From the IMG/VR virus record IMGVR_UViG_3300037137_001990, positions 1 to 24,920 of that record: DNA of 24,920 bases; one strand, written 5' to 3'. This document shows positions 1,952 through 17,377 of this stretch, in pieces. The notes under the pieces were generated by a model. That model saw nothing but the letters and a program-made list of their open reading frames with translations. It searched no databases and had not been told where the DNA came from. Position numbers and translations under genes: made by a program. Every line of letters begins with the position of its first letter. Position 1 is the stretch's first letter. Origin of the DNA: a virus.

Positions 1952-2203
1952 TTACCGTCGGTAATACCCAACATCGTAAGTTGAGTCAAACATATCCGGT
2001 TGAATCACTTTACAGCGATGAAAAGAGGGACCTGTGGGAGGCTCAGGGTTGCAGTCTTTTCTTAACAAATAAGCCTGCAAGACTCTCTGTCTATCTGCCA
2101 ATCCGAAATCTTTTGACCTAAACCAAAAGAGCGATCCTCCTCCCTTGTCAATGTAGGCCCGCATAGCAGCGGCTTGTTGGATTACTTCAGCGTCGGTCAA
2201 CAT
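1952..2203 (-). CDS. Hypothetical 83-aa protein
   Basis: This small protein starts at ATG 2203, overlapping the last 7 bases of the upstream AAA ATPase gene, which suggests coupled translation. The N-terminal half is predicted helical (LTDAEVIQQAAAMRAYI), followed by a glycine-rich turn (DKGGGSLFWFRSKD) and a second helix (ADRQRVLQAYLLRK). The C-terminal 30 residues are polar and probably disordered. There is no signal peptide, membrane segment or cysteine cluster. I do not recognise a family. Its place between a helicase-like ATPase and DNA ligase suggests an accessory role in replication, by context only. It ends 113 bases before the ligase start, the longest non-coding gap in this arm. Confidence 0.7.
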   Translation of the reverse strand: MLTDAEVIQQAAAMRAYIDKGGGSLFWFRSKDFGLADRQRVLQAYLLRKDCNPEPPTGPSFHRCKVIQPDMFDSTYDVGYYRR

Positions 2204-3549
2204 GGTGAGAGTAACTCTCCTTTTGATGGTTTTCGAGAACGAGCAGCAAACACTCGCTCCCGGTTTTTCAGAATCCCAGATAATTGGGTTTGAGTCATCT
2301 CGATAGGTTGGTCAAACAACCCCAACCTTTTTATCCTATTCAACATGGCCTCCTTGAAAAAATAGTAGGTTCCTCTCCTGCCTTTGCTGCCAGTGTACTC
2401 TGCTTGGAGAACACCGTTGAGATACAGGTCAGTGACTACTTGGTTAGTGGTGCTCCAACCGAGACGAGTGATGGGAAGAAGTTCTTTCAATGTTAGGAGT
2501 TGAATTCCCCCTTTGTCTTCTTGCTCTCTCTGAAGGAAATACAAACACTGAAGAACCCAAGCAACCACAGCCGGTAGTGTGTCCCTCAACAAGCGAGCCC
2601 CACCAAATTTCCACGCCTCTTCATTCACCTCACTGATCCCATTCAAAAGACAATACCCAACAACGGCTTGAGCCAACTGCGTTACAAGGCGAGTTCCAAC
2701 TTCGGGATTAGGGCATGAGGCGATGGCTTGGCTGGAATGCTCTCTTAAGACATGAGAGCGGCACGCTGCTATCAAATCTGCTCCACTGATAATTCGTTTC
2801 TTAAATTCAGTTGGCCAAACAACACTGGAAATTGAAATCCTGGGGATAGAGTTGATGAAGTCTCGAACGGCTGCTTTCAGGTCAGCCAGTTTCCTCTCGT
2901 TGTCTCCAGTGAACATGTTGTCAAAGGCGGCCATTGTGATTTTCCGACGATGGAGAGTGAGTTCTCTTCTGGTAATGAAACGTTCCCCCAATTGGGAAGT
3001 CACACTATGGAACCCGTCGATGATTGGGGTAACAGCGAGGAGCATGTTGAAATGAGCAACGTACTCTTTGAGACCGATGTTTCCGAGATGTCGAGAAGCC
3101 TTCCCATCAAAGATGTCGCGGAGTTGGCCAACGACAGAATCACGCTCCTCCCTTGGGCCTTGCAAAATGCAAGTAAAGTCTTTTACAATTAGGACCTTTG
3201 AATCCAACATGTTTAAGAGAGACGGATCATAGTCTGGTCTGGCATCTGAGCGGAAACCGCTGATGAGACTATTTTTGGTAAGCCTACTGAGGAATACAGA
3301 ACCATCCCACAAATCTAATAAACAAATGTGGGCTGTTTTCCCGCTACCTGGTGCTCCAATCAACTGACACCAAAGAGGGTTCTGTGATTTCCAGTGGATG
3401 GAGATAGCAGGGAGAAGCACAAAATCAAGGATAGAGGCTTCGGCTTCGTTCGGGTAGTAGAAGCAAGAAGAGGCTTGGAGTTTGATGTTGCTGAACATGG
3501 TGCGAATTACCCGTTGCCCCCGGGAATTCCATGGAATCGGGTTAGGCAT
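2197..3549 (-). CDS. P-loop AAA-type ATPase, probable replication or recombination helicase-like protein
   Basis: The 450-aa product has a clear Walker A, GAPGSGKT (residues 65-72), and a Walker B-like strand VLIVKDF ending at D124. A segment LRDIFDGKASR and an arginine-finger-like LGERFITRR follow. From memory, this order matches a phage and plasmid AAA ATPase family with a K-D-F-T Walker B, close to helicase domains but without a well-established activity. The C-terminal third holds a region reading LTLKELLPITRLGWSTTNQVVTDLYLNGVL, which looks like a winged-helix DNA-binding domain. The start is ATG 3549 with GGAG 9 bases upstream; a TTG five codons earlier overlaps that site and is less likely. 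It sits between the ssDNA-binding protein and ligase, and it is the only helicase candidate in the window. No primase domain is visible. Confidence 0.8.
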   Translation of the reverse strand: MPNPIPWNSRGQRVIRTMFSNIKLQASSCFYYPNEAEASILDFVLLPAISIHWKSQNPLWCQLIGAPGSGKTAHICLLDLWDGSVFLSRLTKNSLISGFRSDARPDYDPSLLNMLDSKVLIVKDFTCILQGPREERDSVVGQLRDIFDGKASRHLGNIGLKEYVAHFNMLLAVTPIIDGFHSVTSQLGERFITRRELTLHRRKITMAAFDNMFTGDNERKLADLKAAVRDFINSIPRISISSVVWPTEFKKRIISGADLIAACRSHVLREHSSQAIASCPNPEVGTRLVTQLAQAVVGYCLLNGISEVNEEAWKFGGARLLRDTLPAVVAWVLQCLYFLQREQEDKGGIQLLTLKELLPITRLGWSTTNQVVTDLYLNGVLQAEYTGSKGRRGTYYFFKEAMLNRIKRLGLFDQPIEMTQTQLSGILKNRERVFAARSRKPSKGELLSPC

Positions 3550-3615
3550 AAGGAAGCACTCCAAGTTGGGGGACTGCAGGTTGGCTACAGCCCCCCAAAC
3601 GATTGTGGGTAGAAA

Positions 3616-4245
3616 CTACCGTTTCCTGGGAGAAGCCCCTTTGCGGGAGGCTGCGCTGGCAGTGCGCTTTTTCGGTTTCTCCTCTTCCTCCTCCTCCTCC
3701 TCTTCTTCTTCCTCCTCTTCCTCTTCCTCCTCTTCGTCCTCGTCTTTCTTCTTCGAGGACTTTGCCGGCTTGTTCTCCTCCCCCTCCTCCTCTTCTTCCT
3801 CATCATCCTCGTCGACGTCGATGAGGCTGTTGATGTAGACGTTTTGGGAAACTCCGTCGGCACCGGTCTTGACCGTAACTTCGCAAGCCAAGCCTTGTGC
3901 GTCTTCCATCGCCTGTGGGATGCCGTCAGCAGATTCGCAATCGATCTCGAGCCGCTCAAACGCCGTCTTGAGCCATCCCAATTGGGTACCGAGGGCGGCT
4001 TCGTCAGCGGCTTGCAACCCGAATGAGGTGAACAACTGTCTCCCAGCCGATTCCCCGCTGAGAATCTTGAGGAAGAACGAGGCTTGGAGACGATTGTTCT
4101 TGCTGGTGTTGACGATTGCCTTGGTGATGCGGGTCTGGTATCTTCCGTCGGGAACGGGAGTGAATCCAGAACCACGGGATTCAGCAGACCTCCATGCTTC
4201 CTTGAGCCCTGAGAGTGCTGCCTTTGCGTTTGTCTTCTGTGCCAT
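3616..4245 (-). CDS. DUF669-like ssDNA-binding protein with long acidic tail
   Basis: This 209-aa protein begins MAQKTNAKAAL at ATG 4245, with AAGGAG 10 bases upstream; in-frame codons further upstream lack a site. Residues of about 25-110 (FTPVPDGRYQTRITKAIV, LQASFFLKILSGESAGRQLF) match the OB-fold-like pattern of phage DUF669 proteins, often encoded beside Sak4-type annealing ATPases and thought to act as single-strand-binding proteins. A first acidic patch follows SLIDVDEDD. Then come KKKDED and an uninterrupted run of 19 Glu (171-189), followed by a basic end (KPKKR to PRKR). Bacterial SSBs use short acidic tips to recruit partners; a 19-Glu run capped by basic residues is unusual. The neighbours are a Sak4-like ATPase upstream and an AAA ATPase downstream. 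The family call is likely but rests on pattern memory. Confidence 0.72.
   Translation of the reverse strand: MAQKTNAKAALSGLKEAWRSAESRGSGFTPVPDGRYQTRITKAIVNTSKNNRLQASFFLKILSGESAGRQLFTSFGLQAADEAALGTQLGWLKTAFERLEIDCESADGIPQAMEDAQGLACEVTVKTGADGVSQNVYINSLIDVDEDDEEEEEEGEENKPAKSSKKKDEDEEEEEEEEEEEEEEEEEEEKPKKRTASAASRKGASPRKR
3676..3735. repeat. 60-bp uninterrupted homopyrimidine/homopurine tract
   Basis: The plus strand is pure C/T for 60 bases, mainly repeats of CTC and TTC, so the coding strand is pure A/G. It encodes the last 18-19 glutamates of the ssDNA-binding protein tail plus one lysine codon. GAA and GAG codons are interspersed, so it is an irregular trinucleotide repeat rather than a perfect microsatellite. 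A second tract of nearly 30 pyrimidines lies close by, starting near 3775. Such tracts can slip during replication, and some adopt triplex structures. Confidence 0.9.
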
Positions 4246-4326
4246 TGGAACGATTCTCCTTGATGTTGGTGTGCCCATAAATGGGCCTGGTGGTCCTACG
4301 ATCAATCTGTCAATTTTTGTGGACGA

Positions 4327-5112
4327 TTACTCAGAGACCTCCTTTCTTTTCCCTCTGACGGCCCCCTGGAGAGCCGCATAGAACTCCTCGTAGTTGAGAG
4401 GAATTCGAGCCGGTAGTAGCCCAGTTCTATCCCCTGCCTCAAGATTCTCCCGGGCCTTGGTAATGATATACCGGCGTTCTTGGAAAGTCTTGTCCTGTTT
4501 GTTCCTCACCGCAACGGTGACCACAGGGAAAATGAAGTCTACAACGGCGTTGATGAGACGGTATGCCGTTTTTGGGAGAGCAGGTTCGGTCTTGGTGATT
4601 TGGATTGACCGAGAGATAATCTCTCGCTCGACTTGGTGAGCCACAAACGTGATTCCACACCCGAGAGATATCAATCTGGTAATCCAATGATGCCACTCGT
4701 CATAAGTGGCTTCCCACCCTTTCCCCCATTCTGCGTCAGAAGGGTGCTCGAACCCTTTGGTGGTGCACACATAGGTGAAACAGAATTTGTAGAGGTTATC
4801 GACTGTGTCTACTACAAACATCTTCACTTTGTGTTTATCGGTCCCGTGTTTCTCGAACGCAATCACGAGGCCTTGGAAATCCTCCCACCTCTTGATTACT
4901 GTCTTGCGTACTTTCAGAAACTTCAATCCTGGCTCTGTCTCCAGAAAGTAAGCCCCACTGAACTTGGACATGAGTTCAGACTTTCCGATCTTTGGCCTGC
5001 CATACAACAGGATCAAGAAGTCCTCCACCTTCGCTGTGGCCGTAGGGGAATCAGAAATCAAAACCTCTGTCGGTTCAGTCGCTGCTTGCCTTTTCTTCGA
5101 TAAGATCCTCAT
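4327..5112 (-). CDS. Sak4-like RecA-fold ATPase (single-strand annealing or recombination)
   Basis: The 261-aa product has Walker A GRPKIGKS (residues 38-45) at the end of a strand LILLYG, and Walker B MFVVDTVD with D102. A later strand GCGITFVAHQVE resembles the sensor or motif 3 position of RecA-like proteins. This layout fits the phage AAA_24/Sak4 family of short RecA-fold proteins that promote single-strand annealing with a phage SSB. The C-terminus is very basic (AVRGKRKEVSE). I chose ATG 5112 because AAGGAG lies 7 bases upstream; an in-frame TTG at 5136 would start upstream of that site. The gene overlaps the nuclease gene by 38 bases and is followed by the DUF669-like gene, the classical Sak4 partner. 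Together with the exonuclease it forms a phage recombination set. Confidence 0.85.
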   Translation of the reverse strand: MRILSKKRQAATEPTEVLISDSPTATAKVEDFLILLYGRPKIGKSELMSKFSGAYFLETEPGLKFLKVRKTVIKRWEDFQGLVIAFEKHGTDKHKVKMFVVDTVDNLYKFCFTYVCTTKGFEHPSDAEWGKGWEATYDEWHHWITRLISLGCGITFVAHQVEREIISRSIQITKTEPALPKTAYRLINAVVDFIFPVVTVAVRNKQDKTFQERRYIITKARENLEAGDRTGLLPARIPLNYEEFYAALQGAVRGKRKEVSE

Positions 5113-6079
5113 AAACCATCTCCTTTCTTTGCCCAAACATTTTCAACTCCCCAAGAGTTTCTCCGTATCGGCACAGTCGATAGAAGGGGCACTGCTTGTT
5201 GTAGTTGAAGCATGCCCTGGAGTTTCTGTACCAATGGTCAGCGTCCCGGATTTCTTCATCATCCAAAACCTCATGGTACATAAACATCTCATCGACGATT
5301 AGAGCCAAGTCGTTGAGGGTCCTCGTTTCTGCTCTCTTATCAAACAAAACCTCCTCCCTGAAGAAATATGATTCTGGTCTATCGAGCATGACTTGAACAA
5401 GGCGCTCGTGAAATTCGAGTTTGGTTTCGTTTTGCTTGATGCGAATGCGGGGCTTCACGCAAACATTATACCAGATACTGTGGAGAGGTTCTCCTAAACA
5501 CCGACTAACAATGGCCGGGTAAATACAAATCTGGAAATCCATCGGCAACCTGTCGATACTGGATTGGTAGAGTGCAGACCCTGTCTTATGCTCATGACAC
5601 ACCCACACCTTTCTCGACCCTCTCACAAAGCCCTTCGTCAGCAAATCAACAACTGCTACGAGAGGAACTTTGTGAACCCCAGTATCAAAGATGATTTTGA
5701 AGGGTTGCTCGACAAGAGTATCCTTCACGCCTTTTTGATCTCTCTTGTAGAAGACCATATAGGCGTTAAGCATAGACATGACGAGAACTTGGTAATACTC
5801 CAGGTCAGCGGGATTTACTAATTTGGTAGAAACGTCCTTGAGCAAGAGGTCTATGTATGCCTCCGCTGCTTCAAGGACATCTCCCGGCTTGGTCCCCGAA
5901 TAAAACAACGACAATCCTTTGTGGAATACCCCCCCCACAAAGAAGTCGTTATGGAAACTGATGGGAGAGAGTCTACGGATATATGTCCAGTAATACTTTC
6001 TCCTACACTCGATGAAGGTTTGCGCTCGGCTTACAGAGATCTGCCTGATGTCGGTGAGGGGAATAGACGCTTTGCCCAT
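5075..6079 (-). CDS. Cas4/AddB-like PD-(D/E)XK nuclease with Fe-S cluster
   Basis: This 334-aa protein fits the RecB-like nuclease superfamily. Motifs in order are an N-terminal QTFIECRRKYYW containing C25, an early histidine in GGVFHKGLSLF, the metal-binding Asp in AVVDLLTK, the E-x-K pair in CHEHKTG, and a helix MDFQICIYP carrying the Q/Y motif. Three further cysteines near the C-terminus (CFNYNKQCPFYRLC) complete the one-plus-three cysteine pattern of Cas4 and AddB 4Fe-4S clusters. Such enzymes resect DNA ends to give single strands for annealing. ATG 6079 is preceded by AGGAGG at 9 bases, a strong site. It overlaps the ERCC4 gene by 49 bases and the Sak4-like gene by 38, consistent with one tightly coupled operon. 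It is not evidence for a CRISPR system; no cas1, cas2 or array is present. Confidence 0.88.
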   Translation of the reverse strand: MGKASIPLTDIRQISVSRAQTFIECRRKYYWTYIRRLSPISFHNDFFVGGVFHKGLSLFYSGTKPGDVLEAAEAYIDLLLKDVSTKLVNPADLEYYQVLVMSMLNAYMVFYKRDQKGVKDTLVEQPFKIIFDTGVHKVPLVAVVDLLTKGFVRGSRKVWVCHEHKTGSALYQSSIDRLPMDFQICIYPAIVSRCLGEPLHSIWYNVCVKPRIRIKQNETKLEFHERLVQVMLDRPESYFFREEVLFDKRAETRTLNDLALIVDEMFMYHEVLDDEEIRDADHWYRNSRACFNYNKQCPFYRLCRYGETLGELKMFGQRKEMVYEDLIEEKASSD

Positions 6080-6564
6080 TGGTGTAATCCTCCTGTTGGA
6101 AATTCGAATAGACGTTTCTCTTTCCTCAAAGCAAGAATCTGGTCGAAGAGATTGACAATCAGTTGCTTACCGAATACCCCGCTTCCAACTGAGATGATAG
6201 GAATTCCGTACTCAAGGGTGATGGTGACGAATGTGTTGGAGGCGAGGATTACTGAGTTTTGGGGACCATACGATTTCGTCCACATCATCGACGAGACATC
6301 ATCACACACAACAAGAAAACGGATTGGAAATGCTTGCATCCGTTTGAGAAGGGCATTGAAGGCGATTCGTCTTTTACGACTACTGACATTCATGGCTATC
6401 TCCTCCCAAGACGCCTTTCTCTCAATGCACAAAATCTTCTCTAACCCTCTGATCGTATAGTCGCCCGTAGCAAGACGCCTATGGACAACATCGTAACGAT
6501 CGTGTGGAAACCTCCATGGCTTTTTCTCTCTGTCGTCACAAATAACCGTGCTCTTTGCGGTCAT
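6031..6564 (-). CDS. ERCC4-type (XPF-fold) structure-specific nuclease
   Basis: At 177 aa this is a stand-alone nuclease domain. The N-terminus STVICDDREKKPWRF gives the first acidic cluster (D10, D11). GDYTI places the metal-binding D35, and IERKA supplies E48, R49 and K50 of the ERK motif. Helices rich in Lys/Arg follow, then a strand IRFLVVCDD. XPF/Mus81-type domains cut branched or flapped DNA near junctions. In the family the motif reads ERKx3D; here the last position is Glu (E54), a conservative change. There is no helix-hairpin-helix domain, which is usual for the compact phage versions. The start ATG 6564 has GAGGA immediately upstream and a second GAGGA at -14. Lying between DNA polymerase and the Cas4-like exonuclease, it probably processes replication or recombination branches. 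Confidence 0.86.
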   Translation of the reverse strand: MTAKSTVICDDREKKPWRFPHDRYDVVHRRLATGDYTIRGLEKILCIERKASWEEIAMNVSSRKRRIAFNALLKRMQAFPIRFLVVCDDVSSMMWTKSYGPQNSVILASNTFVTITLEYGIPIISVGSGVFGKQLIVNLFDQILALRKEKRLFEFPTGGLHQWAKRLFPSPTSGRSL

Positions 6565-6586
6565 TCCTCAGGTCCTCGTTGAGAGG

Positions 6587-8650
6587 TCATAAAAACCAAT
6601 CAACCTTAGTTAGATTGTGCTTCACCACAACGTTTTTGTAAACCCCATGAAATCGCTGGGTTGCTTGTTTGATGGCCCGGCAAGAGATAGGAAATTTTTT
6701 CTTGTCTTCCCATGTTGTTTCAGCGTAAGAGACGTCAACTGTTAACTTCATTTTGTACTGGAGGACAGGGAGAATTTCCTCCATAGCAAGTTGAGCGATC
6801 GCTGCTACTTCTTCAGTGTACTTCTTTTCTACCTCGATGATTAGTTCATCGTGGATGGGAAGAAGGATGGAAGCATGCTTGTCTAATTTTAGAGCCAACA
6901 ACACTCTCCACAATTGGATCATCGCAAACTTCAACACCATGGCTGAAGAGCCTTGGACAAGAGGGTTAATGAGAACCCAAGACTTGTGAACAGAAACAGG
7001 GTAAGGACGATGGAACATATCTATTACGAATCCCTGTTTCAACACTAACTTCATTCCTCGTTGGGCTAACCTATGGATCCCAGGAAACTGAGTGTAATAC
7101 TCATTGAGAATTTCCCTTGCTTCAGCAAATGGAACTCCCAAAGAGGTGGCTAACAAGTGAGTCCCCATCCCGTAGATGATTCCGAAATTGATGGTCTTCG
7201 CTTCTTGCCTGTGCTTCTCATCCCCAAACACCCGGACCGAAGTCAACATGTGAAGGTCACGCCCTTCCTTAAGAGCCTTCAACATTTCGGTATCCTGGGC
7301 AAACAAGGCAAACATTTTTAACTCAATCTGTGAATAGTCAATGTAGAGATTGTTGTACCCAGGGCGAGGGATAAAGATGCTGCGAACGGATGGGATTCCT
7401 TTGATAATGGAGGTGGTTGGGCGAGGGATTCCTTGGAGAGGAGGATTCCCACAGGCAAACCGACCTGTGGCTGTATCTCCTACCTTTAGTTGACAATGGA
7501 TGATTGGATCATCGTCGGTAGACCGAGTTAGGAAACTCTCAAAATAGGTAGAGAGAAGTTTCCCACACACTCTCAAATCCAGTATCTGCGCGAGCAGAGT
7601 TATCTTTGGATGTTCTTTCTGAATGCGAGTCAGAACTTCCTTGCAGGTTGAGATCTTCCCTTTGTAGGTCATCTCCTTTGGTGAAATGTCTACCTCTCGA
7701 AGCAATTCCTTCAGTTGCAGCAGGCTGCGAGGATTGAAGGCATTGAAGCCGAGGGCTCTGGTTTTCTTGATGATGGATAAACGGAGAACTTTTTCTTTAG
7801 CCTTGGTGATTATGGTGGCTCTCTGACAAGCCGCCCTATCTATCATCAGCCCGCGATTCTCCATCCCATACGCCAAATATACACACTCCATCTCTACCTC
7901 CATCAACTTTTTTAGAGCCGGAGTAAGTCGTTCTTCCAACATCATGTAAACAACGAACTCCGCCCAAATATCGCTGAGGGCATAAGGAATCAGAACGTCA
8001 TCTGGGAGTGCGGAATAATTGATCCAGTCTTTAGGTTTACCGCTGCGGGTTGCTGCTGACTTTGCTCTTCGGAGCCATGTCTTCACTTCCAAATCATACT
8101 TAACGTCTTCTCCCCCCATTGAGAATAAGTGAAACAGATCCTTCAGTGAATGGCTTCTGAGAACTGGTTTGGCATCGCCCATGGTGCCCCACTCGGTAGT
8201 TCTGGGATAAACTAAACGGGAGGCGCTGAGAGTATCAAACCACGGAGTGGCAAGAGGAATATCGTGCTTCCTCAAAATCTGCGCATCAAACTTTATGTTA
8301 TGACCGATTTTGAGAAGGGGTCTTGCTAATAGAGCCCTGGCTTCTTCCAATCCTTTCGAATCCCACCATGGGATAAAGAGACAAGTCAGTTTGTCGATTT
8401 TAGGGTTATAGAAGCCAAGTTGGAGACTCACCAGTGCTGAGCCCCTAACCTCAGTCACCTTATTTTTGCGGGTGTCATGGAAATAAGTATGTCCACCATA
8501 CGCATCAAATCCCGATGTCTCTGTATCAACGTAGATAAAGTCTGGGTTACCGCATGTCTTTTGCAACCACTTTACCGAAAGTCTACTCCAAACAGAGTGG
8601 GTGAAAGAAACGTTGCTCTTGAAATAAGAACTGAAGAGTTTGTTTGTCAT
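6587..8650 (-). CDS. polA: DNA polymerase I (family A) with 3'-5' proofreading domain
   Basis: This 687-aa protein is the replicative polymerase of the phage. The exonuclease domain shows Exo I YVDTET (D42, E44), Exo II GHNIKFDAQ (D122) and an Exo III-like YALSDIWAEF. The polymerase domain shows motif A LYIDYSQIELK with catalytic D438, motif B RQEAKTINFGIIYG with K485, and motif C LPIHDELIIEV with D601. There is no 5'-3' exonuclease domain, as in T7-like and many siphovirus polymerases; the separate ERCC4 nuclease is not a substitute for that activity. Motif B has F in NFG, and the position that discriminates against dideoxynucleotides cannot be judged by eye. ATG 8650 overlaps the stop of the upstream methyltransferase (ATGA), so the two are probably translationally coupled. 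Confidence 0.97.
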   Translation of the reverse strand: MTNKLFSSYFKSNVSFTHSVWSRLSVKWLQKTCGNPDFIYVDTETSGFDAYGGHTYFHDTRKNKVTEVRGSALVSLQLGFYNPKIDKLTCLFIPWWDSKGLEEARALLARPLLKIGHNIKFDAQILRKHDIPLATPWFDTLSASRLVYPRTTEWGTMGDAKPVLRSHSLKDLFHLFSMGGEDVKYDLEVKTWLRRAKSAATRSGKPKDWINYSALPDDVLIPYALSDIWAEFVVYMMLEERLTPALKKLMEVEMECVYLAYGMENRGLMIDRAACQRATIITKAKEKVLRLSIIKKTRALGFNAFNPRSLLQLKELLREVDISPKEMTYKGKISTCKEVLTRIQKEHPKITLLAQILDLRVCGKLLSTYFESFLTRSTDDDPIIHCQLKVGDTATGRFACGNPPLQGIPRPTTSIIKGIPSVRSIFIPRPGYNNLYIDYSQIELKMFALFAQDTEMLKALKEGRDLHMLTSVRVFGDEKHRQEAKTINFGIIYGMGTHLLATSLGVPFAEAREILNEYYTQFPGIHRLAQRGMKLVLKQGFVIDMFHRPYPVSVHKSWVLINPLVQGSSAMVLKFAMIQLWRVLLALKLDKHASILLPIHDELIIEVEKKYTEEVAAIAQLAMEEILPVLQYKMKLTVDVSYAETTWEDKKKFPISCRAIKQATQRFHGVYKNVVVKHNLTKVDWFL

Positions 8651-9507
8651 TGGATGAGCATCTTCTTCCGGTATACAAACATAGTATGGGATCTTGATAT
8701 GGGGATGGAAGTTCGATAACCCGGAGGTAAGTATCCTGTGGGAATAGAAGACAGTACCCCACTGTGAATTGCCATGTGTAACCTATGGAAAGCAATTCGA
8801 AAGCCATGGGTTAGAGCAATCACAATGAGTACCCCAGATACATGGAGCAGAGGAAGAACGTCCCTGTTGAGAAAGGCCATTGTCTGCCTGAGGGTTTTGG
8901 TATGAAGAACCTCACTCAAAATCACGAATCCACAAGTTCCCTTGAATCTTTCCATTGCCTGTTCTGGGGTAAAGATATTCGGGCAATGTTGAAAAATTGG
9001 AGTCCGTTTATCTACTCCCCACACAGGAAAAGGGGTTCTGTACTGGTAGAGTTTTTCAACCAGCCATCCATTTCCACAACCGTAATCTATCCCATAGGGC
9101 TCAATCACTTCGTCCTTGATAGCATCAATATCCCAATCCTCAGTAACATGAAATGACTCGAGCATGTGGTCATAACTGGCTTCTACCTCTGGGGACCAAT
9201 CATGGGTGGAATCCATAGTCATTAGATGTTCACAAGTAGCCTTGGAATACAATTGGGAATCATGCTTTACGTAGGTGATAGCCCCAGAGTAATCCTTGAC
9301 TAACTGCAAGAGTTCTACCTCTGTCAGTAAACACCCTAACCCAGCCATGGCTTCAAGGATTTGAGTGCACAAGAAATGAGCCATACCTGTATTACCAGAA
9401 TCGATTGAGTCTTTGTAGAGGGTGATGGCTGTGGTGAGTCTATGACTCATCAGAGCCTTAATAAACATTTCACTATTTGATACGCTCGGCTTTTGCGGTA
9501 TGGACAT
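8647..9507 (-). CDS. Class I SAM-dependent methyltransferase
   Basis: The best start is ATG 9507 (MSIPQKPS), with AGGAGG 10 bases upstream, giving 286 aa. The first 135 residues are helical and unrecognised. The Rossmann domain begins with motif I GIDYGCGNG (139-147), followed by WGVDKR as the ribose-binding acidic strand (162-168) and FVILSEVLHTKTL at the motif IV position (194-206). There is no DPPY/NPPY motif of DNA amino-methyltransferases and no PCQ motif of C5-cytosine enzymes. The LSEVLH strand is typical of small-molecule or tRNA/ubiquinone-type methyltransferases. The substrate is unknown. The gene overlaps the UDG-like gene by 35 bases and the polymerase gene by 4, so it belongs to the same operon and may modify nucleotides or act with its neighbours on DNA bases. 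Methyltransferase fold fairly sure, role inferred. Confidence 0.78.
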   Translation of the reverse strand: MSIPQKPSVSNSEMFIKALMSHRLTTAITLYKDSIDSGNTGMAHFLCTQILEAMAGLGCLLTEVELLQLVKDYSGAITYVKHDSQLYSKATCEHLMTMDSTHDWSPEVEASYDHMLESFHVTEDWDIDAIKDEVIEPYGIDYGCGNGWLVEKLYQYRTPFPVWGVDKRTPIFQHCPNIFTPEQAMERFKGTCGFVILSEVLHTKTLRQTMAFLNRDVLPLLHVSGVLIVIALTHGFRIAFHRLHMAIHSGVLSSIPTGYLPPGYRTSIPISRSHTMFVYRKKMLIQ

Positions 9508-10120
9508 GATCGAGTATCCTCCTGAAATTGTTTTTCCATTCGGTTGTATCCGCATGGCTATACAGAAACGAGGCTGGGTGTCGAAGCCAGTAGAACCCAA
9601 CATGGAGCGAGCAAGCAGGGTTAACCCAGAACCCGGTATTGAACCATCTAACTCCCTCCTTAAGAGCCATAGTCATACCCATGCCCCGGAAAGAATTTCT
9701 GGCGTCTGCTCCTAAGGTTAGGATAATGTTGGGCTTAACGATAGCGAGTTCCTTTCTTAGCCAGTCCTGGCAATTCTCAATCTCGCCTGGAAGAGATGGT
9801 TTGTTTCCTGATGGGTGGCAATGAACGACGTTGGTAGTGAAGACATCGAATTTTGATAAGCCTTCCTCAATCAATACCTCATCAATCAGATCGCCAGAAC
9901 CACGAGTAAACGGAATTTGTGTTAGTTGGCATCGGGTACAAAGACTCTGTCCCACCAACATGATAGGCGAGCATGGATCACCAAACCCTGGGGCACTCAT
10001 GGTATTTGGTTGGTTGAGCCCAGAACACCGTCGACATTCTGCAATGGCTTTTCGAATGCCAACCAATTTCTCTGTCCTGCGATAGAAACGCTCGATGTAG
10101 GTTTTCATTACATGATTCAT
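9473..10120 (-). CDS. Family-4-like uracil-DNA glycosylase superfamily protein with altered motif A
   Basis: The 215-aa protein has the four cysteines of Fe-S family 4 UDGs: C29 and C32 (CRRC), C101 in NVVHCHP and C117 in EIENC. The 16-residue spacing between the last two is the same as in the thermophilic enzymes. Core segments match: FTRGSGDLIDEVLIEEGL, DVFTTNVV, PNIILTLGADA and the C-terminal HPASF with H181. Family 4 has motif A GEAPG, where Glu is catalytic; here it is GQSLC (57-61) with another Cys at 64. Ordinary uracil excision should therefore not be assumed; it might recognise another base or be a non-hydrolytic relative. ATG 10120 has GGAG 10-11 bases upstream. It sits in a cassette with dUTPase and U32-like genes. 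Fold confidence is high; substrate is unknown. Confidence 0.85.
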   Translation of the reverse strand: MNHVMKTYIERFYRRTEKLVGIRKAIAECRRCSGLNQPNTMSAPGFGDPCSPIMLVGQSLCTRCQLTQIPFTRGSGDLIDEVLIEEGLSKFDVFTTNVVHCHPSGNKPSLPGEIENCQDWLRKELAIVKPNIILTLGADARNSFRGMGMTMALKEGVRWFNTGFWVNPACSLHVGFYWLRHPASFLYSHADTTEWKNNFRRILDHVHTAKAERIK

Positions 10121-10125
10121 TTGCT

Positions 10126-10503
10126 TTACTCTCCATGAAACCCATTTTGGATGGGATTGAAGTGTTGTTTAGGGTGATGCCCTTCGTAAAACTCACACAT
10201 GGCTACATTGGATATATCTACCAAATGCTCCAGATTCCCGTCCTCCATATAGAGATCGAGTTTCTTCCTGATATACCCTACCCGGTCATATCTTAGTTTC
10301 GCAGGATCCCCGAGGAGGCCATATCTGAATGCCCCCTGGATCATTCGCCATAGCATGAGATTGATGTAGTCCTGAGGGACCTGAGTGCGTTTTAGTTCTT
10401 CGAGCGATGGTAAGCCGAACCGGATGGGCTTTTCAGGGAGGCCTGCCAAATCCTCCCACAAACTCATCAGGAAGGCCTTTTCAATCAGGCTAACATCAAT
10501 CAC
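10126..10503 (-). CDS. Conserved-looking phage protein of unknown function (125 aa)
   Basis: The frame opens with GTG 10503, overlapping the stop of the U32-like gene. An ATG at 10467 with AAGG 8 bases upstream is an alternative start that would give 113 aa. The protein is mostly helical. Its C-terminal half (RYDRVGYIRKKLDLYMEDGNLEHLVDISNVAMCEFYEG, then HHPKQHF) matches from memory a recurring small phage protein containing a 'GN-LVD-AN' helix and an 'H-P-x-x-H-F' ending, seen near nucleotide-metabolism genes. I know of no proven function. The conserved polar residues (D, N, E, H) look more like an active or metal-binding site than a structural protein. It is 5 bases upstream of the UDG-like gene in the same operon. 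Confidence 0.72.
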   Translation of the reverse strand: MIDVSLIEKAFLMSLWEDLAGLPEKPIRFGLPSLEELKRTQVPQDYINLMLWRMIQGAFRYGLLGDPAKLRYDRVGYIRKKLDLYMEDGNLEHLVDISNVAMCEFYEGHHPKQHFNPIQNGFHGE

Positions 10504-11587
10504 TGAGAGTCTCGAAAAGGTTGTCGCAGATTCGACAGGTTAATCCGCAATCTTCGGTTGAGCAGGAGTGAGGGTTCCCTGAGAAGTTGTCTACTGTACC
10601 TCGCCACTTATCGAGAATCCCAGAGGAAGCGATTGCCGAGGCAGAAAGATAGAGACCATGGGAGGAGATAACCTCTTCTTGTATTTGCCCGTAGATGGTT
10701 TCAAGTTGGGCCCACAAATCCAGAAGGTTCCCAGTCCATATCCTATGCATGTAACCGAAAACAATCTTCCGAATAAACTCACTCTCGTGAGTTCTCCCGG
10801 TTATCTTGAAGTGAGAAATCCCTTCGTCCTCGTAAGATTGAATCCATTGGGGGAGGATGAAGGGGGCCTTAATCCAACTGGATGGTTGACTCCACCTTGC
10901 CGCCATACACCGGCTCATCGGATAATTCTCAGCAACCATCCAATCGTTGTGGGAATGCCCCATGTAGCAGGAGTCACGGTAGATTCCATGGCAAGGAGCA
11001 CGACCTACCGTACAGAATTCATTGACGATGAGTTCTGCAATATCATTGTGCTTGGTTTTGACCAGAGCCCGAAGAAACTTGAAGTCTCGATTCTTCGTGA
11101 TCGGCAAGCACACTCTGACCAACCGTTCTCCTAATGTCCTCTTCCAGAAAGTGAAATGAGAAACTGAATCACAGTTGAGGATGGTGGAGATTTCAACAGC
11201 GATAGGGATGTGGTGTTTGACGATGGTCTCAGCGATGAGGGGGTGAGCAATGGTAATGATGTCGACGAAACCATTGAGAGAATTAAGGAACCTAACAAAG
11301 AGTCTCTCCATGGTACCCCATTGCTTCAGGGATCCCAAGCAAAAAGCGTTCGCTGTTAGATTTACCTTGTACCCAGCCTCATGGACCTGCTTGCAAATCT
11401 CGAAGAACTCTTCTCGTTCAATTTTCGGTAACCGCTCTATGGGACGAGCAGAACCGATCGGGTTGAATGTGGTAGACCAATATAACGAGCCAATACTGGT
11501 TCCATGCTCTAACCCCTCAACCTGCGAACTATTGAAGTCAGCAAGAAGTCTTACGTCCCCGTTGAATCCGACGTTGTAGATGGACAT
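10496..11587 (-). CDS. U32 / UbiU-YhbU-like Fe-S protein
   Basis: This 363-aa protein has the landmarks of the peptidase U32 family: a TIM-barrel-like order of strands (GYKVNLTANA, GFVDIITIAHP, IPIAVEISTILNC, RLVRVCLP), then a cysteine cluster C192, C199, C207 and C227, then the signature HFKITGR. The C192-x6-C199 spacing equals that of UbiU, whose cysteines bind a 4Fe-4S cluster. Despite the 'peptidase' name, characterised bacterial members (UbiU/UbiV, TrhP, RlhA) mostly take part in hydroxylation of ubiquinone precursors or RNA bases. ATG 11587 has GGGAGG 6 bases upstream. It overlaps dUTPase by 37 bases and the 125-aa gene by 8. C-terminal cysteines (CSTEDCGLTCRICD) form a possible second metal site. 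In this phage operon a base or nucleotide hydroxylase role is possible but unproven. Confidence 0.82.
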   Translation of the reverse strand: MSIYNVGFNGDVRLLADFNSSQVEGLEHGTSIGSLYWSTTFNPIGSARPIERLPKIEREEFFEICKQVHEAGYKVNLTANAFCLGSLKQWGTMERLFVRFLNSLNGFVDIITIAHPLIAETIVKHHIPIAVEISTILNCDSVSHFTFWKRTLGERLVRVCLPITKNRDFKFLRALVKTKHNDIAELIVNEFCTVGRAPCHGIYRDSCYMGHSHNDWMVAENYPMSRCMAARWSQPSSWIKAPFILPQWIQSYEDEGISHFKITGRTHESEFIRKIVFGYMHRIWTGNLLDLWAQLETIYGQIQEEVISSHGLYLSASAIASSGILDKWRGTVDNFSGNPHSCSTEDCGLTCRICDNLFETLSD

Positions 11588-12021
11588 GGCGATCCTCCCT
11601 TATTTGTGCTTCCTAAACCGTTTGTCTTCCTACTTGATTCAGGTAAAGCGTCGTAGGCTGCTTCTTGTGCCCCTCTATCGTACAATCTTATTGGAAGTAT
11701 CTGTGCTATTCTCATACCCGGGACAATGGTGAAGACATATCTGGAGAGATTCACTAAACAAACATGGATCTCTCCTCGATAATTCGAGTCCACAACATTC
11801 CCTATCGTAAACACCCCATCCTTATGAGCAAATCCTGATCTGCCTTGGATAAGGAAACAAATGTTCTTTGGTCCAGCCATTGCTATCCCAACCCCCACAC
11901 TAACGAAAGAGTTGGGAGATACGTTTACTGCCTCAATCGCAAACAGATCAAACGCAGCATCTCCATCAAAGGACTTGGAGGGGATAACTGCTTTCGGAGA
12001 GAGTTTTGCAAAATATATCAT
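11551..12021 (-). CDS. dut: dUTP diphosphatase (trimeric dUTPase)
   Basis: This 156-aa enzyme hydrolyses dUTP to dUMP and pyrophosphate, keeping uracil out of phage DNA and supplying dUMP. All five motifs are visible: I DAAFDL (21-26), II GRSGFAH (60-66), III GNVVDSNYRG with catalytic D78, IV GMRIAQI (102-108) and V RKTNGLGSTNKGG (131-143). Motif V has Leu where most trimeric dUTPases have the uracil-stacking Phe of GGFGST, a deviation. A short Ser/Thr-rich tail follows. The ribosome site before ATG 12021 is poor, and only 24 bases separate the start from the hairpin at 12046-12086, so expression may depend on transcript structure. It is the first gene of the metabolism and replication arm and overlaps the U32-like gene by 37 bases. 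Confidence 0.95.
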   Translation of the reverse strand: MIYFAKLSPKAVIPSKSFDGDAAFDLFAIEAVNVSPNSFVSVGVGIAMAGPKNICFLIQGRSGFAHKDGVFTIGNVVDSNYRGEIHVCLVNLSRYVFTIVPGMRIAQILPIRLYDRGAQEAAYDALPESSRKTNGLGSTNKGGSPCPSTTSDSTGT

Positions 12022-12127: not shown

Positions 12128-12472
12128 CTACTCTCCGTCACCGTCGTCGTTGGTTGCGAGTTTCGCCTTGGCTTTACCCTTGGCTTTACCCTTGGCTTTG
12201 GCCTTGGCTTTGGGTTTTTCCTTCTTCTGGCGAACCGCTCGTGGGATGTCCATCCCGTCGGCGCGAAGCCGGTTGCGGTAATACGAAGCGTGAACCGGGT
12301 TGAACTTGGAGTCCGGGAACTGCTTCGTCACGAGGTCGACGAGTTCGGCATTGGATACGTCCGGGTTGCTTTCGAACTCGCTACGCACCAGCGCGGAGAT
12401 GGTTTCGCGAGGTTCCTTCGCTGGCTTCGTCTTCGCCTTCTGGGCGACTTTCTTCTTCTTTGGGGCACTCAT
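12128..12472 (-). CDS. Lys/Ala-rich histone-H1-like DNA-binding protein
   Basis: The 114-aa protein has three parts: a basic N-terminus (APKKKKVAQKAKTKPAK), a folded helical core of about 55 residues (ETISALVRSEFESNPDVSNAELVDLV, then FNPVHASYYRNRLRADG), and a basic repetitive C-tail of alternating Lys-Ala and Lys-Gly (KAKAKAKGKAKGKAKAK) ending in an acidic NDDGDGE. The core looks helix-turn-helix-like, and the tails resemble bacterial histone-H1-like proteins, so binding or compacting DNA is a reasonable inference. The gene has a strong site, AAGGAGG 8 bases before ATG 12472, and its own 105-base upstream gap, consistent with high expression. The tail is encoded by an imperfect tandem repeat of GGCTTTACCCTT-type units at about 12165-12215. 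The family name is not recognised. Confidence 0.75.
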   Translation of the reverse strand: MSAPKKKKVAQKAKTKPAKEPRETISALVRSEFESNPDVSNAELVDLVTKQFPDSKFNPVHASYYRNRLRADGMDIPRAVRQKKEKPKAKAKAKGKAKGKAKAKLATNDDGDGE

Positions 12473-13114: not shown

Positions 13115-16100
13115 TTAGGAGTTCTTAAGTGCAGGCCAAAGACCTGCAACCATTGCTGGTTTAGAGTTTGAGAGATAGTTGTGGTCTATCTCCACAAAAA
13201 CGGTTCCGATTGTAATACCGCCTGCGCTGATTTTTCTCCCGGTGTAGGAAAAGGTTTTTACCAGCCCATCCTCATCAGTTACACCTGAGCACCCACTCAC
13301 CCAAGTCGATAAAAAATTGTGAAGGTCAGTAGTTCCTCCAACTTCAAAAGGTCCAGAAGGAACAAGACAAAGATAGTCTGTTGAAGAAAGAGGATTCTCA
13401 GCGAGGTACTTGGCAATGTCGGTGATGTTGAACATTCCATAGTAGGAATCTTCAATCATTTTCATCGAAGCCAGAGAACCAAAACCAAGAATGGAAGATA
13501 AGGTTGCTAAGCCAGTTTCATCAAGCACAAGTCTGGCCATGTGGATTCCCAACCCAGCAGAGAGAGGGTTGAGGACTGTTATATCAGACACAATTGGATT
13601 GTAATCGACTATCTCAAAATGGTGCTCTATGTAATATATTGGCCCACCAAACCTAATCCCAACATAGCAAGCCTTGATTGCGTCTGCCCGAAGAGGGATT
13701 CTGATTTGGAAACGAGGAGCACCAGCACCCCCGATAGCCCGCACCAAGTAAGGTACTGACCAGACATTCGCCCCAACCTCAAGCCCTCCGGGTGGAAGAA
13801 ACGAAGGAGCACACCAACCAACTTGGGTGGGAGTATAATCTGGCGGAGGAGGTGGTACATAAAGAGGTAAAGCAGACAATGAACCCCAGGAAAAATTCTT
13901 TGCTGTCCCGTAGTCTGGGGTACTAACTCCAGTTGTTGTCCACCCAATCGCCGAATGGTATTGCCCAAATGCTATCTGAAGACCTCCTCCAAGATTAGTC
14001 GGGGTGAAGGCAATCAATTTCCTGATTCCCTCTCTCAACCGAGTTACATGCTCTGCAGGGGGATTAGGCATCATGTCAAGGAAGTCCCCTTTGACTTGGA
14101 TGTCATGAAACTTAGTTGGATCCCAGGAAACAGAACTTATAGAAGCCCGACCTGATGGTCTGTCAATTGACAAGAGAACCGCAACTGAGTCGCTGTCTAT
14201 CGCTACTGGGCCTGATCTCACCAAGTGTCTGACTTCCACCATTGTAGTTGATTCTCCAAAGGAATCATCGACTTTTGCCTCATACTTTGGGGGGAGAACA
14301 CCGTCCATGTAGAACTCAAATCTCTGCTGGGCTCGTTGAGCAGAGGATAACCCTAAAAGGTAGTTTCCTAATTGGGTAGCAAGGGCCCCAGCCAACTCAA
14401 ACCAAACCTCGTCACATTTCCTTCGATAGTCTTCGAAGTCTGCCGGGTGGCCTAAGCCTTTTGGAGGCGTGAGTATATCAACAAGTTCAGCCCCGGTGTA
14501 GGTCAAAGTGTAACGGATTCGTCGGAACCATGTTGTGTTTGAGGGAGTGAGAAACCATGAGGCGTTCTTCTGGAAGAGATGGAATTTCCCAGGTGCAGCC
14601 AACATCATTTCAGGGGCTGCTCCATCCCTGATTCCATCATAGATTAGAGCCAGGGTAGACCAACCCTTAGTGGCATAATTGTAGACCTCGAAGGTAATGG
14701 GTTGTTCAACATCTGGGAGACCACGGAGAGGGATACAAGGGACAGATGGGAAAGCCCCACCCGCATATCCCTGAGAAACCATGTAGATGTTGGCATCTTC
14801 CTCTTGAGATGCTTCTCCTGTAAACTTAAACCTAACCTTCCACCCGAGGTCTGCCAGATTACCCGAAATTGCGTACTGTGCCCATGCTGCAGCCATTTTG
14901 GGGTTGTTCGGGATTAGAGGACCAGAGGTAGCACCTTGGCCGCTGCCGATTCGCCAGTGGGCATCGGCTGATTCGTTGAATTCAGTGGCATCAGCAGCCA
15001 CCTGCTCGATTCCAAGCAGCCAGGCTGGGGAGTAGTTATAGTTTACAGCCTCAACCAGGAATGAGGATTTGCCGCTGGAGGGGTACCACCCACCAGGACA
15101 ATCCATCTCCTTAGTTTCAACACCCGAGCCACCCAATGGAGGCCCACTGTAAATCTCCCCACTGTAGGCCTTGGCTTTGAGGACTGGTACTCGAATTTGG
15201 TTTAGAGGGTATGGGGCAGTTGATATACTTGCTGTACATCCTTTCCGTGCTTTGTAACACTGCCCGAAAAATGACCCCTCATTTGAGGTGAGACCATTAC
15301 GACTTTTTCGTTCGTCAACAGGATCAACAGTATGGCCTCCAGCCAAATACAAAGAATACCCAGTTTCATCTTGCCCAAGATAAAACTCACAAGCCTCAAT
15401 CCCTGGGGTAAATGCTACCTTAAGGATGTTTCCACCCACCATTGGAATCCTATACATTCTCCAAGCATATTTCGCCTGTTCTTGGATTCCGTTGAATGCT
15501 CCCAACGAAACGGCTCTTGGGGTTCTAATGGAAACAATGTCAATCAGATCACTCTTTTGATGGATAACTTCGCATCCACTTATAGTTTGGACCTGGTTGT
15601 ACAAGGATGGGGTAAGGTTGATGTTGCGGATAGGGAACTTCCGCTTTTTGATTCTCTGCACATATTTCTCTGTATATCCAAAGATCGGAGACTCAGGGTG
15701 AGGAGGAGTAAACGGATGCTCTCTGAAGCCAGGGAAGTAAGAAAAGATTTCTGCGTAGTCCGACCCATCATCAAAGACTTCACCTGAAGTGCCAGATTGG
15801 GGTTGTGTGCTTCCTTGCTGCAGAACACCTGTTTTTCCAGGAGCGATCGTTCCATTCTTTATTGTCCAATAAGGTTCGGTTGTTGTGTCGAGGTAACCGA
15901 AGATCCCATGTCCCAGCCTGGTGTACCTTGGAGAATAAACGTTCTGGCTGTAAGATGGTTGACCAGCCAACCAAGTCAAACTCGGTACACCCCCTGCCCC
16001 TCTCAACATAATCACAGTTGGATTCCCAGCCATGACTTGGCGAAAAACCAAGTTCTTCCCCATCAATAGGTTCTTGATTCCATCGAGGGAAATACGAGTC

Positions 16101-17377
16101 CCACCAGTTAGACTTACTGGAGAGTAGTATCTGCATCTCGTGTTGTTACAGAGAGCATGATATTGTTCTCGTTCTTGGGAATTTAGACCTTGAGCAATCT
16201 CGCAATACCAACTTTCTCCATTCCCATCGGTTTTTGCCCAAACCAGTTCTGTGAACTTGGTGATACTACCAGAGCCGTCTAACCTGTTGTGATTACAAGA
16301 AAGCAGGGAAGTAGAGTGTGCTATCCCAACCCACGCATTAGGATCATCAACCACTGCTCGGTATTCAACCTTGAACCACAGGTAAGGAGGACTTGTGATG
16401 TCGAACTTGAAGTATGACCGGAAGCCCTGAGATGGAGCCCAGGTGTTCCACAGTTTTGCGGTTGGAGATGGAAAGCTAGAAAGAAAAGCAGCAGTAACAT
16501 CGACGGCAACAGACGATGGGGTTAGTTTTGCCCAAACCCTAAACGTACCAGTGTAGTTTTCAGCATAGGGCAGTGGAAAAGCAAAATCACACGATCCTCC
16601 GTCTCTCCCAAAAAGTTCAATCGTCTTTGATGGGTCAAGATCAGCAATGCTCAGCCAGGCCGTGGAGACTGGGACAGAATACGCTAACCTGGAAGGGTTA
16701 CACTTTAGCCAGTGCTCTGGGTCTCCAATGTCATCAACCAAAGTAAACCCAACACCATTTGCGGTGGGCAACATGTTGGTGAGTTCACAAGTTATGAGGT
16801 TTGGACTGACGGAAGTTATTTTCCGAATGAGCGCCCGATTTACACCAGAAGGATCTATTCTAACTTCCATCCAAGGTTTGAGTCCAACAGTTGTTGAAGA
16901 CCAGGTTGGGCCGCCTTCATAGGCTGGAGTAAAACTAAGCTGGGTATAGAGAGCCCGAGGATCTACATAGCCAGGAGGTGGAGCAGTTGACAACACCAGC
17001 ACCAACCCAGACACCCACCCGTATACTGGGAACACGTGGGTGAAGTTCACACTATACAAACCTTGTGGTTGGAACCCAGGGGTGGCAGCAGGAAATCCCT
17101 CCCCAACCCAATGGAGGAAACGAAGGTCGCTCTGCATTTCATCAAACCACTTCACCCACAATGCTTTAGAGTATTCCCCAAGGTCTTTCCAGTTTCTTAC
17201 ATAATTCAAGTCCGTCCTGGCGTAGGAAACGTAGTTGAGTTTTACGGAGCGATTACTTTGGGGAGTAACCCCCTGGACTCTGGGGGTATAGTGATCAACA
17301 CGCTCCCAAGGGGCTGGCAAAACCGGATACCCAAATTCATCGAGGGTAGGAGTGACGGGCGCATTTGGGTATGTCAT
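13115..17377 (-). CDS. Giant tail-tip or receptor-binding structural protein (1420 aa), unrecognised
   Basis: I start this gene at ATG 17377, overlapping the upstream stop as TAATG, with GGAGGT 11 bases upstream; ATG 17398 is seven codons longer but lacks a site. The sequence is rich in Gly, Pro, Ser, Tyr and Trp with beta-strand periodicity throughout and has no membrane segment. Low-complexity linkers occur in the middle (LQQGSTQPQSGTSGE) and near residue 1150 (LYVPPPPPDYTP). A helical insertion lies in the segment DFEDYRRKCDEVWFELAGALATQLGNYLLGL. I do not recognise a Dit, Tal, gpJ or tail-fibre family, yet its position after the tape measure and two small proteins and before the endolysin is where siphoviruses place baseplate hub and receptor-binding proteins. 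A virion role is inferred from context and composition. Confidence 0.75.
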   Translation of the reverse strand: MTYPNAPVTPTLDEFGYPVLPAPWERVDHYTPRVQGVTPQSNRSVKLNYVSYARTDLNYVRNWKDLGEYSKALWVKWFDEMQSDLRFLHWVGEGFPAATPGFQPQGLYSVNFTHVFPVYGWVSGLVLVLSTAPPPGYVDPRALYTQLSFTPAYEGGPTWSSTTVGLKPWMEVRIDPSGVNRALIRKITSVSPNLITCELTNMLPTANGVGFTLVDDIGDPEHWLKCNPSRLAYSVPVSTAWLSIADLDPSKTIELFGRDGGSCDFAFPLPYAENYTGTFRVWAKLTPSSVAVDVTAAFLSSFPSPTAKLWNTWAPSQGFRSYFKFDITSPPYLWFKVEYRAVVDDPNAWVGIAHSTSLLSCNHNRLDGSGSITKFTELVWAKTDGNGESWYCEIAQGLNSQEREQYHALCNNTRCRYYSPVSLTGGTRISLDGIKNLLMGKNLVFRQVMAGNPTVIMLRGAGGVPSLTWLAGQPSYSQNVYSPRYTRLGHGIFGYLDTTTEPYWTIKNGTIAPGKTGVLQQGSTQPQSGTSGEVFDDGSDYAEIFSYFPGFREHPFTPPHPESPIFGYTEKYVQRIKKRKFPIRNINLTPSLYNQVQTISGCEVIHQKSDLIDIVSIRTPRAVSLGAFNGIQEQAKYAWRMYRIPMVGGNILKVAFTPGIEACEFYLGQDETGYSLYLAGGHTVDPVDERKSRNGLTSNEGSFFGQCYKARKGCTASISTAPYPLNQIRVPVLKAKAYSGEIYSGPPLGGSGVETKEMDCPGGWYPSSGKSSFLVEAVNYNYSPAWLLGIEQVAADATEFNESADAHWRIGSGQGATSGPLIPNNPKMAAAWAQYAISGNLADLGWKVRFKFTGEASQEEDANIYMVSQGYAGGAFPSVPCIPLRGLPDVEQPITFEVYNYATKGWSTLALIYDGIRDGAAPEMMLAAPGKFHLFQKNASWFLTPSNTTWFRRIRYTLTYTGAELVDILTPPKGLGHPADFEDYRRKCDEVWFELAGALATQLGNYLLGLSSAQRAQQRFEFYMDGVLPPKYEAKVDDSFGESTTMVEVRHLVRSGPVAIDSDSVAVLLSIDRPSGRASISSVSWDPTKFHDIQVKGDFLDMMPNPPAEHVTRLREGIRKLIAFTPTNLGGGLQIAFGQYHSAIGWTTTGVSTPDYGTAKNFSWGSLSALPLYVPPPPPDYTPTQVGWCAPSFLPPGGLEVGANVWSVPYLVRAIGGAGAPRFQIRIPLRADAIKACYVGIRFGGPIYYIEHHFEIVDYNPIVSDITVLNPLSAGLGIHMARLVLDETGLATLSSILGFGSLASMKMIEDSYYGMFNITDIAKYLAENPLSSTDYLCLVPSGPFEVGGTTDLHNFLSTWVSGCSGVTDEDGLVKTFSYTGRKISAGGITIGTVFVEIDHNYLSNSKPAMVAGLWPALKNS

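Follow-up and report, generated by a model that had tools for sequence, protein, structure and literature searches.

A predicted pyrimidine C5-hydroxylation cassette of a U32-family protein, an altered uracil-DNA glycosylase and a putative methyltransferase in a phage lineage

Does the block of genes directly ahead of a phage DNA polymerase make a modified DNA base, and which of its members take part? The question is raised by the IMG/VR virus record IMGVR_UViG_3300037137_001990, a 24,920-base linear fragment that we call the window. The minus strand carries its main genes, with tail genes and an endolysin followed by replication genes. The initial annotation proposed that five tightly overlapping genes, for a dUTPase, a U32-like protein, a 125-amino-acid (aa) protein, an altered uracil-DNA glycosylase (UDG) and a non-canonical class I methyltransferase, form a base or nucleotide modification cassette. 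Our analysis keeps the core of that model, namely the U32 protein, the altered UDG and the methyltransferase, but not the dUTPase or the 125-aa protein. The best explanation, which we regard as evenly poised between right and wrong, is a pyrimidine C5-hydroxylation cassette that works without a thymidylate synthase relative and probably caps its product with a methyl group.

All five open reading frames (ORFs) proved to be present, tightly packed on the minus strand at window positions 8647-12021 ahead of a family A DNA polymerase (polymerase A). They run in the order dUTPase, U32-family protein, 125-aa protein, UDG-superfamily protein, putative methyltransferase, polymerase A. The dUTPase and U32 frames share 37 bases and the U32 and 125-aa frames share 8, while 5 bases separate the 125-aa protein from the UDG and the methyltransferase overlaps the polymerase by 4. 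The methyltransferase probably starts at residue 33 of its frame (base 9507), giving a 35-base overlap with the UDG. The features of the block and its flanks are as follows.

12128..12472, minus strand: Lys/Ala-rich 114-aa protein, upstream of the cassette; a counterpart lies upstream in the distant relative L088, described below
11551..12021, minus strand: ordinary dUTPase, accessory; 156 aa (Pfam dUTPase, 1.9e-21)
10496..11587, minus strand: U32-family protein of the phage type; 363 aa (Pfam Peptidase_U32, 1.4e-5; phrog_5757, 1.4e-51, residues 2-358)
10126..10503, minus strand: 125-aa protein of an uncharacterised phage family, accessory (no Pfam family at E<=1)
9473..10120, minus strand: UDG-superfamily protein with altered motif A (VGQSLCTRCQLTQIPFTRGSG); 215 aa (Pfam UDG, 9.7e-22)
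8647..9507, minus strand (ORF open to 9603): putative class I S-adenosylmethionine (SAM)-dependent methyltransferase with a helical N-terminal domain (Methyltransf_23, 0.001, under its cut-off)
6587..8650, minus strand: family A DNA polymerase, directly downstream of the block (3.8e-72)

The U32 family contains hydroxylases of several substrates. Cellular members act on tRNA at U34 (TrhP), on rRNA at C2501 (RlhA) and on ubiquinone precursors, according to the available parts of PMC6599085 and PMC11574389. The window protein matches the Pfam Peptidase_U32 profile at 25 bits, above the cut-off of 22.4, and a profile of phage U32 proteins aligns with Escherichia coli UbiU, UbiV, RlhA and TrhP at an E-value of 1.1e-10 (hhalign). 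Residues E185, C207, C227, G264 and R265 are invariant across 8 aligned proteins, with 264-265 forming a GR motif. The core cysteines C192, C207 and C227 align with C169, C176 and C193 of UbiU, and the three core cysteines and GR motif common to the four E. coli enzymes are mostly kept. In addition, the window protein carries a C-terminal cluster, C342, C347, C351 and C354 (CX4CX3CX2C), that is kept across the phage clade. A structural model built from 12 sequences reached a mean predicted local distance difference test (pLDDT) score of only 58.8; its best fold match in the PDB is a U32 protein, 5d88 (Z 13.2, root-mean-square deviation 5.2, 219 residues aligned). Other matches, to MTHFR and further barrels, lie at most 1 Z unit from 5d88 and show the barrel only; we set them aside.

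A search of genome contigs with the alignment of phage U32 proteins gave two loci, L088 and L087, which we placed together with the window in a tree of 18 sequences. The window and L088 proteins group together (support 96/95) inside a phage-type clade, supported at 98/95, whose other members are the L087 and T-even proteins. The four E. coli sequences form a separate group (100/100). L088 sits on a long branch and its placement is less sure. The window protein thus shares its clade with U32 proteins from phages whose DNA carries arabinosyl-hydroxycytosine. Together with the core cysteines and GR motif, mostly kept, this clade supports, as far as sequence goes, the initial proposal that the protein is a base hydroxylase.

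What do these T-even relatives do with the gene? In RB69-type DNA, arabinose is bound through oxygen directly to C5 of cytosine, a modification built on 5-hydroxy-dCMP; we take LC53 to be another arabinosyl-hydroxycytosine phage. The window U32 protein has full-length relatives, at about 33% identity, in 218 of 50,697 phage records. No match reaches 60% identity, 217 cover at least 80% of the protein, and the matches listed are T-even-type phages. When nine phage records were tested with the U32 profile, it was present in RB69, LC53, PM2, Marfa, F2 and Thanatos-1 and gave no match in T4, RB49 or MTATph1. In each of the six, the genes around it include a thymidylate-kinase-like gene, a thymidylate synthase relative and genes for sugar modification. 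The synthase relative falls within about 2 kb of U32 in 17/17 T-even-type loci (Marfa, a duplicate genome, is counted twice). A chorismate mutase gene stands beside U32 in 12 of these loci, including L011:5884-6228, L004:8106-8492 and L002:7134-7391; none is detectable at the F2, Marfa (twice), phiE142 and RB69 loci. Pfam verified the CM_2 domain in Thanatos-1, LC53 and PM2, and in LC53 the U32, chorismate mutase and synthase-relative genes overlap end to end. The product of chorismate mutase is prephenate. TrhP, the U32 tRNA hydroxylase, needs prephenate, as stated in the available part of PMC6599085. Since U32 adjoins chorismate mutase in a 5-hydroxycytosine cluster, its product in T-even phages looks, from this gene association, like the oxygen-inserting step or a partner of it. 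A literature search, whose coverage lacked most subscription papers, found U32 nowhere named in phage DNA modification.

The window's own gene block recurs in L088, a 45,546-base contig (C75) in a Planctomycetota bin that carries phage genes throughout. This circular contig is probably complete, since it has a 77-bp direct end repeat. Its genes run in the order Lys-rich protein, 142-aa protein, U32, DUF6378-like protein, UDG, methyltransferase, DUF4326, HNH, polymerase A, ERCC4-type nuclease, exonuclease, Sak4, SSB and ATPase. BLAST matches link it to the window across many genes: U32 (29% identity), UDG (41%), polymerase (29%), exonuclease (28%), ERCC4-type nuclease (34%), Sak4 (47%), SSB (34%) and a 455-aa protein (29%). 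The Lys/Ala-rich proteins match at 27% over 56 aa, a match that vanishes with low-complexity filtering. By these matches the two phages belong to a single lineage, at a great distance from each other, in which the U32-UDG-methyltransferase block has been kept together.

Conserved co-occurrence therefore holds for part of the proposed cassette. U32, the altered UDG and the methyltransferase precede polymerase A in this very distant relative, but the dUTPase and the 125-aa protein have no match there, and we dropped the dUTPase, which looks canonical, as a pathway member. The place of the 125-aa protein is taken in L088 by a DUF6378/DUF1599-like protein. The 125-aa protein itself is a member of an uncharacterised family that is widespread in phages, with 49 IMG/VR loci, none of which carries U32, the methyltransferase or dUTPase; it had one match at E<=1 among the 50,697 phage records. 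Its family signature is GNxExLVDxxNxAMxEF...HPxxHF. We also considered it as a chorismate mutase and dropped the idea, as it has no such Pfam match. This leaves U32, the altered UDG and the methyltransferase as the conserved core, with the dUTPase and 125-aa genes as ordinary neighbors.

The UDG bears out its description as altered. It keeps the Fe-S cysteines C29, C32, C101 and C117 and motif B (HPASFL), matches the UDG superfamily profile PF03167 (9.7e-22) and matches Thermus UDG 1ui0 at 6e-18. Against TIGR00758 it scores 91.8 bits, under the cut-off of 125.3, and against the UdgX profile TIGR03914 it falls short, at 71.5 bits versus 189.95. Motif A has VGQSLCT in the window, where all seven aligned phage relatives, the one from Bacillus phage SP-15 among them, have [VI]GE[AG]PG and then two acidic residues or something similar (VGEAPG in the aligned L008 relative). 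The Glu of GE[AG]PG is a catalytic residue. Because motif A is missing, the protein is not a proper family 4 UDG. In the window and L088 alike the motif reads VGQSLCTxCxxTQIPFTxGSG, although the alignment of the two UDGs shows no more than 42% identity. Loss of the acid, with the remainder conserved across that distance, argues for a new, constrained role over decay, as judged from these sequences. A scan of IMG/VR for altered UDGs returned a single locus, L089, which we dropped: it encodes an ordinary UDG (GECPGADED) fused to polymerase.

The third core protein is less well defined. Its description as a non-canonical class I methyltransferase is plausible by motifs (DYGCGNG, GVDKR, SEVLH and HMAIHSG) and weak by profile, and we call it putative because its support comes from the motifs only. 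Its L088 counterpart agrees with it in location and size and has GxDKR, ExLH and HMxxHSG in common with it. Among the 50,697 phage records, the window methyltransferase has no match at E<=0.01.

If the three proteins act together, the U32 protein would be a hydroxylase that needs no O2, depends on Fe-S and probably on prephenate, and adds OH at pyrimidine C5, most likely on cytosine of the phage DNA or the nucleotide pool. We consider hydroxylation of DNA bases moderately probable, and predict DNA to be the likely target; the lack of a synthase relative, together with a DNA-binding fold in the cassette, leans weakly toward DNA over the nucleotide. The methyltransferase would most likely cap the new hydroxyl to give a 5-methoxypyrimidine, by analogy with the pairing of U32 and TrmR behind 5-methoxyuridine in Bacillus tRNA, but the methoxy product is a tentative suggestion. 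UDG-family and helix-hairpin-helix glycosylases act on hydroxylated and deaminated pyrimidines. The altered UDG-fold protein may flip, read or clear either the hydroxylated base or the 5-hydroxyuracil that its deamination would give, a role that we propose with equal reserve.

Where would the cassette find its cosubstrate, and how does it differ from known routes? Neither a thymidylate synthase (PF00303) nor a chorismate mutase (PF01817) was found in the window, and absence from this record does not mean absence from the phage, since the record is a linear fragment. On the L088 phage contig, both a ThyA-type synthase and a chorismate mutase are absent; in that bin they occur only on contig C110, and prephenate could come from the host. 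The L088 phage has ThyX (L097:6490-7233; phrog_85, 5.9e-47), and reading of its ORFs, without a profile, suggests Nudix-like and MazG-like genes. With no ThyA-type synthase on this probably complete relative, the earlier suggestion of a route distinct from classical hydroxymethylation holds. One post-replicative form of the mechanism would go further: the UDG, with its glycosylase acid lost and its base-pocket loop gaining a conserved CTxC, would replace the nucleotide-level synthase relative of T-even phages, flipping the pyrimidine and perhaps activating it through Cys, whereupon U32 would hydroxylate C5 in DNA and the methyltransferase would cap it to 5-methoxycytosine or 5-methoxyuracil. 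We think this specific form improbable.

Other U32 contexts help to place the window. The third non-T-even member of the clade, L087, lies on a Phocaeicola faecalis contig, where a four-gene island (3044-7137) between ordinary chromosomal genes encodes a GP88 protein, a guanylate-kinase/methyltransferase fusion, a weakly Pa-AGOG glycosylase-like protein (Pfam 0.039, PDB 0.0035) and a phage-type U32 that is 34% identical to the window's and 45% to PM2's. Here too, if the weak glycosylase call is accepted, U32 has a methyltransferase and a glycosylase-like protein as neighbors. More distant U32 matches at E<=1e-20 numbered 17, in 16 of 687 genomes. No UDG was seen in the eight such regions that we read (four of them from Planctomycetota), two of which say little, as their U32 frame was missed. 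In four Bacteroidales loci (L115, L116, L117 and L118), distant U32 genes stand, by eye, beside condensation-domain genes like those of nonribosomal peptide synthetases (NRPS), asparagine-synthase-like and arylamine-acetyltransferase-like genes, which suggests use of U32 in natural-product pathways. Single-sequence scans found no relative in IMG/VR (U32, methyltransferase, UDG and polymerase) or in the genome contigs (U32). An IMG/VR scan with the U32 alignment gave 11 loci, all T-even-type; a fixed-gap DNA pattern search gave 0 matches, and a plasmid scan 0 of 72,556.

Several of our results weigh against a hydroxylation cassette. The core cysteines of the window U32 are spaced CX14CX19C, without a following fourth Cys, and so differ from the published CX6CX15CX3C, from which UbiU and UbiV likewise deviate (available part of PMC6747719). 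In these T-even phages, 5-hydroxy-dCMP is ascribed to the thymidylate synthase relative, acting at the mononucleotide stage (PMC13390438), and U32 goes unmentioned in the available part of that paper; even there, therefore, the role of U32 rests on gene association. As the window fragment and L088 lack a synthase of this family, U32 must be enough by itself there, or else the product is a different one. For the methyltransferase, the best class I SAM profile, Methyltransf_23, reaches 0.001 and 19.3 bits against a cut-off of 27, BLAST finds no match in L088, the structural model is too poor to use (pLDDT 41.5), and it has no close relationship to the L087 enzyme (hhalign probability 2.8). The window and L088 are one lineage and hence not two independent cases. 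Finally, the natural-product-like neighborhoods of wider-clade U32 genes mean that the substrates of this fold vary.

Could the cassette modify RNA instead? U32 and the methyltransferase might act on host or phage tRNA or rRNA, making 5-hydroxyuridine (ho5U), 5-methoxyuridine (mo5U) or 5-hydroxycytidine (ho5C), with the replication genes as incidental neighbors. The nucleic-acid U32 enzymes with proven products, TrhP and RlhA, all act on RNA in the available parts of PMC6599085 and PMC11574389, and the L087 methyltransferase domain matches a PHROG named tRNA methyltransferase (2.6e-8). However, E. coli TrhP and RlhA form a separate, well supported group in the tree, the nearest relatives of the window U32 sit in DNA cytosine modification clusters of T-even phages, and the UDG partner has a DNA-binding fold, so we consider RNA modification unlikely, if the strongest of the competing accounts.

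A somewhat less probable account sees ordinary nucleotide and repair genes, in which dUTPase and UDG exclude uracil from phage DNA while U32 and the methyltransferase are unrelated passengers. The canonical look of the dUTPase fits this, as does the frequency of family 4 UDGs in phages, often fused to polymerase A (30 of 50,697 records). It is harder to reconcile with a UDG whose motif A lacks the conserved Glu and PG and is kept in that altered form in L088 at 42% UDG identity, and with conservation of U32, UDG and methyltransferase but not of dUTPase. Least probable is that the cassette makes a modified free nucleotide, as a decoy, inhibitor or signal, and not for DNA. The NRPS-like and other biosynthetic genes beside distant wider-clade U32s in Bacteroidales give this idea its basis; in the tree those proteins fall outside the phage clade, and Pfam and PHROG scans showed no export or resistance gene beside the window cassette.

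If the preferred account, pyrimidine C5-hydroxylation of DNA, is true, it would be a 5-hydroxypyrimidine DNA route outside T-even phages, without the thymidylate synthase-family enzyme thought to make this base. Were the post-replicative form right, 5-methoxycytosine or 5-methoxyuracil would be a new viral DNA base. The account would also point to U32 and prephenate as the oxygen-inserting step in T-even phages, where chorismate mutase in 12/17 loci is hard to explain otherwise. The conserved loss of a catalytic motif in a cassette-tied UDG suggests that a glycosylase fold has been reused to handle a modified base.

Three further window proteins drew our attention. A 1427-aa protein (13115-17398) and the 455-aa protein (2197-3564) have no Pfam or PHROG match; the latter is kept in L088 (29%, 1.2e-60), where its counterpart shows a GPPGSGKS-type P-loop. 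The SSB-like protein (3616-4305) has a very long acidic run near its C-terminus, and its L088 counterpart is acidic too.

How does the cassette compare with known systems? The arabinosyl-hydroxycytosine cluster of RB69, LC53, Proteus PM2 and Thanatos-1 shares with the window the U32 clade, its invariant residues and a position near replicative polymerase genes. In contrast, the window and L088 lack the thymidylate synthase-family 5-hydroxy-dCMP synthase and chorismate mutase and have the altered UDG and methyltransferase instead. Arabinose-5-phosphate isomerase, NTP-transferase and arabinosyltransferase are not among the Pfam and PHROG matches of the ORFs scanned in the window fragment, and no dedicated profile for them was run. 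Because the synthase is missing, the cassette is not a member of that system. Synechococcus phage S-B43, with its CmoA/CmoX carboxymethylcytosine pathway, likewise shows a phage turning prephenate-linked chemistry of tRNA modification to use on DNA; unlike the scheme proposed here, it puts the carboxymethyl directly on C5 by a C5-methyltransferase relative, and the available part of the report does not mention U32 (PMC12783734).

The altered UDGs share with family 4 enzymes (Thermus 1ui0) the fold, the four Fe-S cysteines and the HPA of motif B, but replace GE[AG]PG in motif A with GQSLC and an added CTxC. E. coli RlhA, which makes ho5C2501 in 23S rRNA, is a U32 enzyme that hydroxylates cytosine C5 and whose cysteines align with those of the window protein; it is longer, acts on RNA and is about 19% identical in alignment. 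In the Bacillus yrrMNO operon, two U32 proteins (TrhP1/TrhP2) and the methyltransferase TrmR produce mo5U in tRNA (available part of PMC6599085). That system differs from the window in its RNA substrate, its two U32 paralogues and its U32 clade (E. coli TrhP stands apart in the tree), but, like the window's predicted pathway, it encodes a U32 hydroxylase together with a SAM-dependent methyltransferase.

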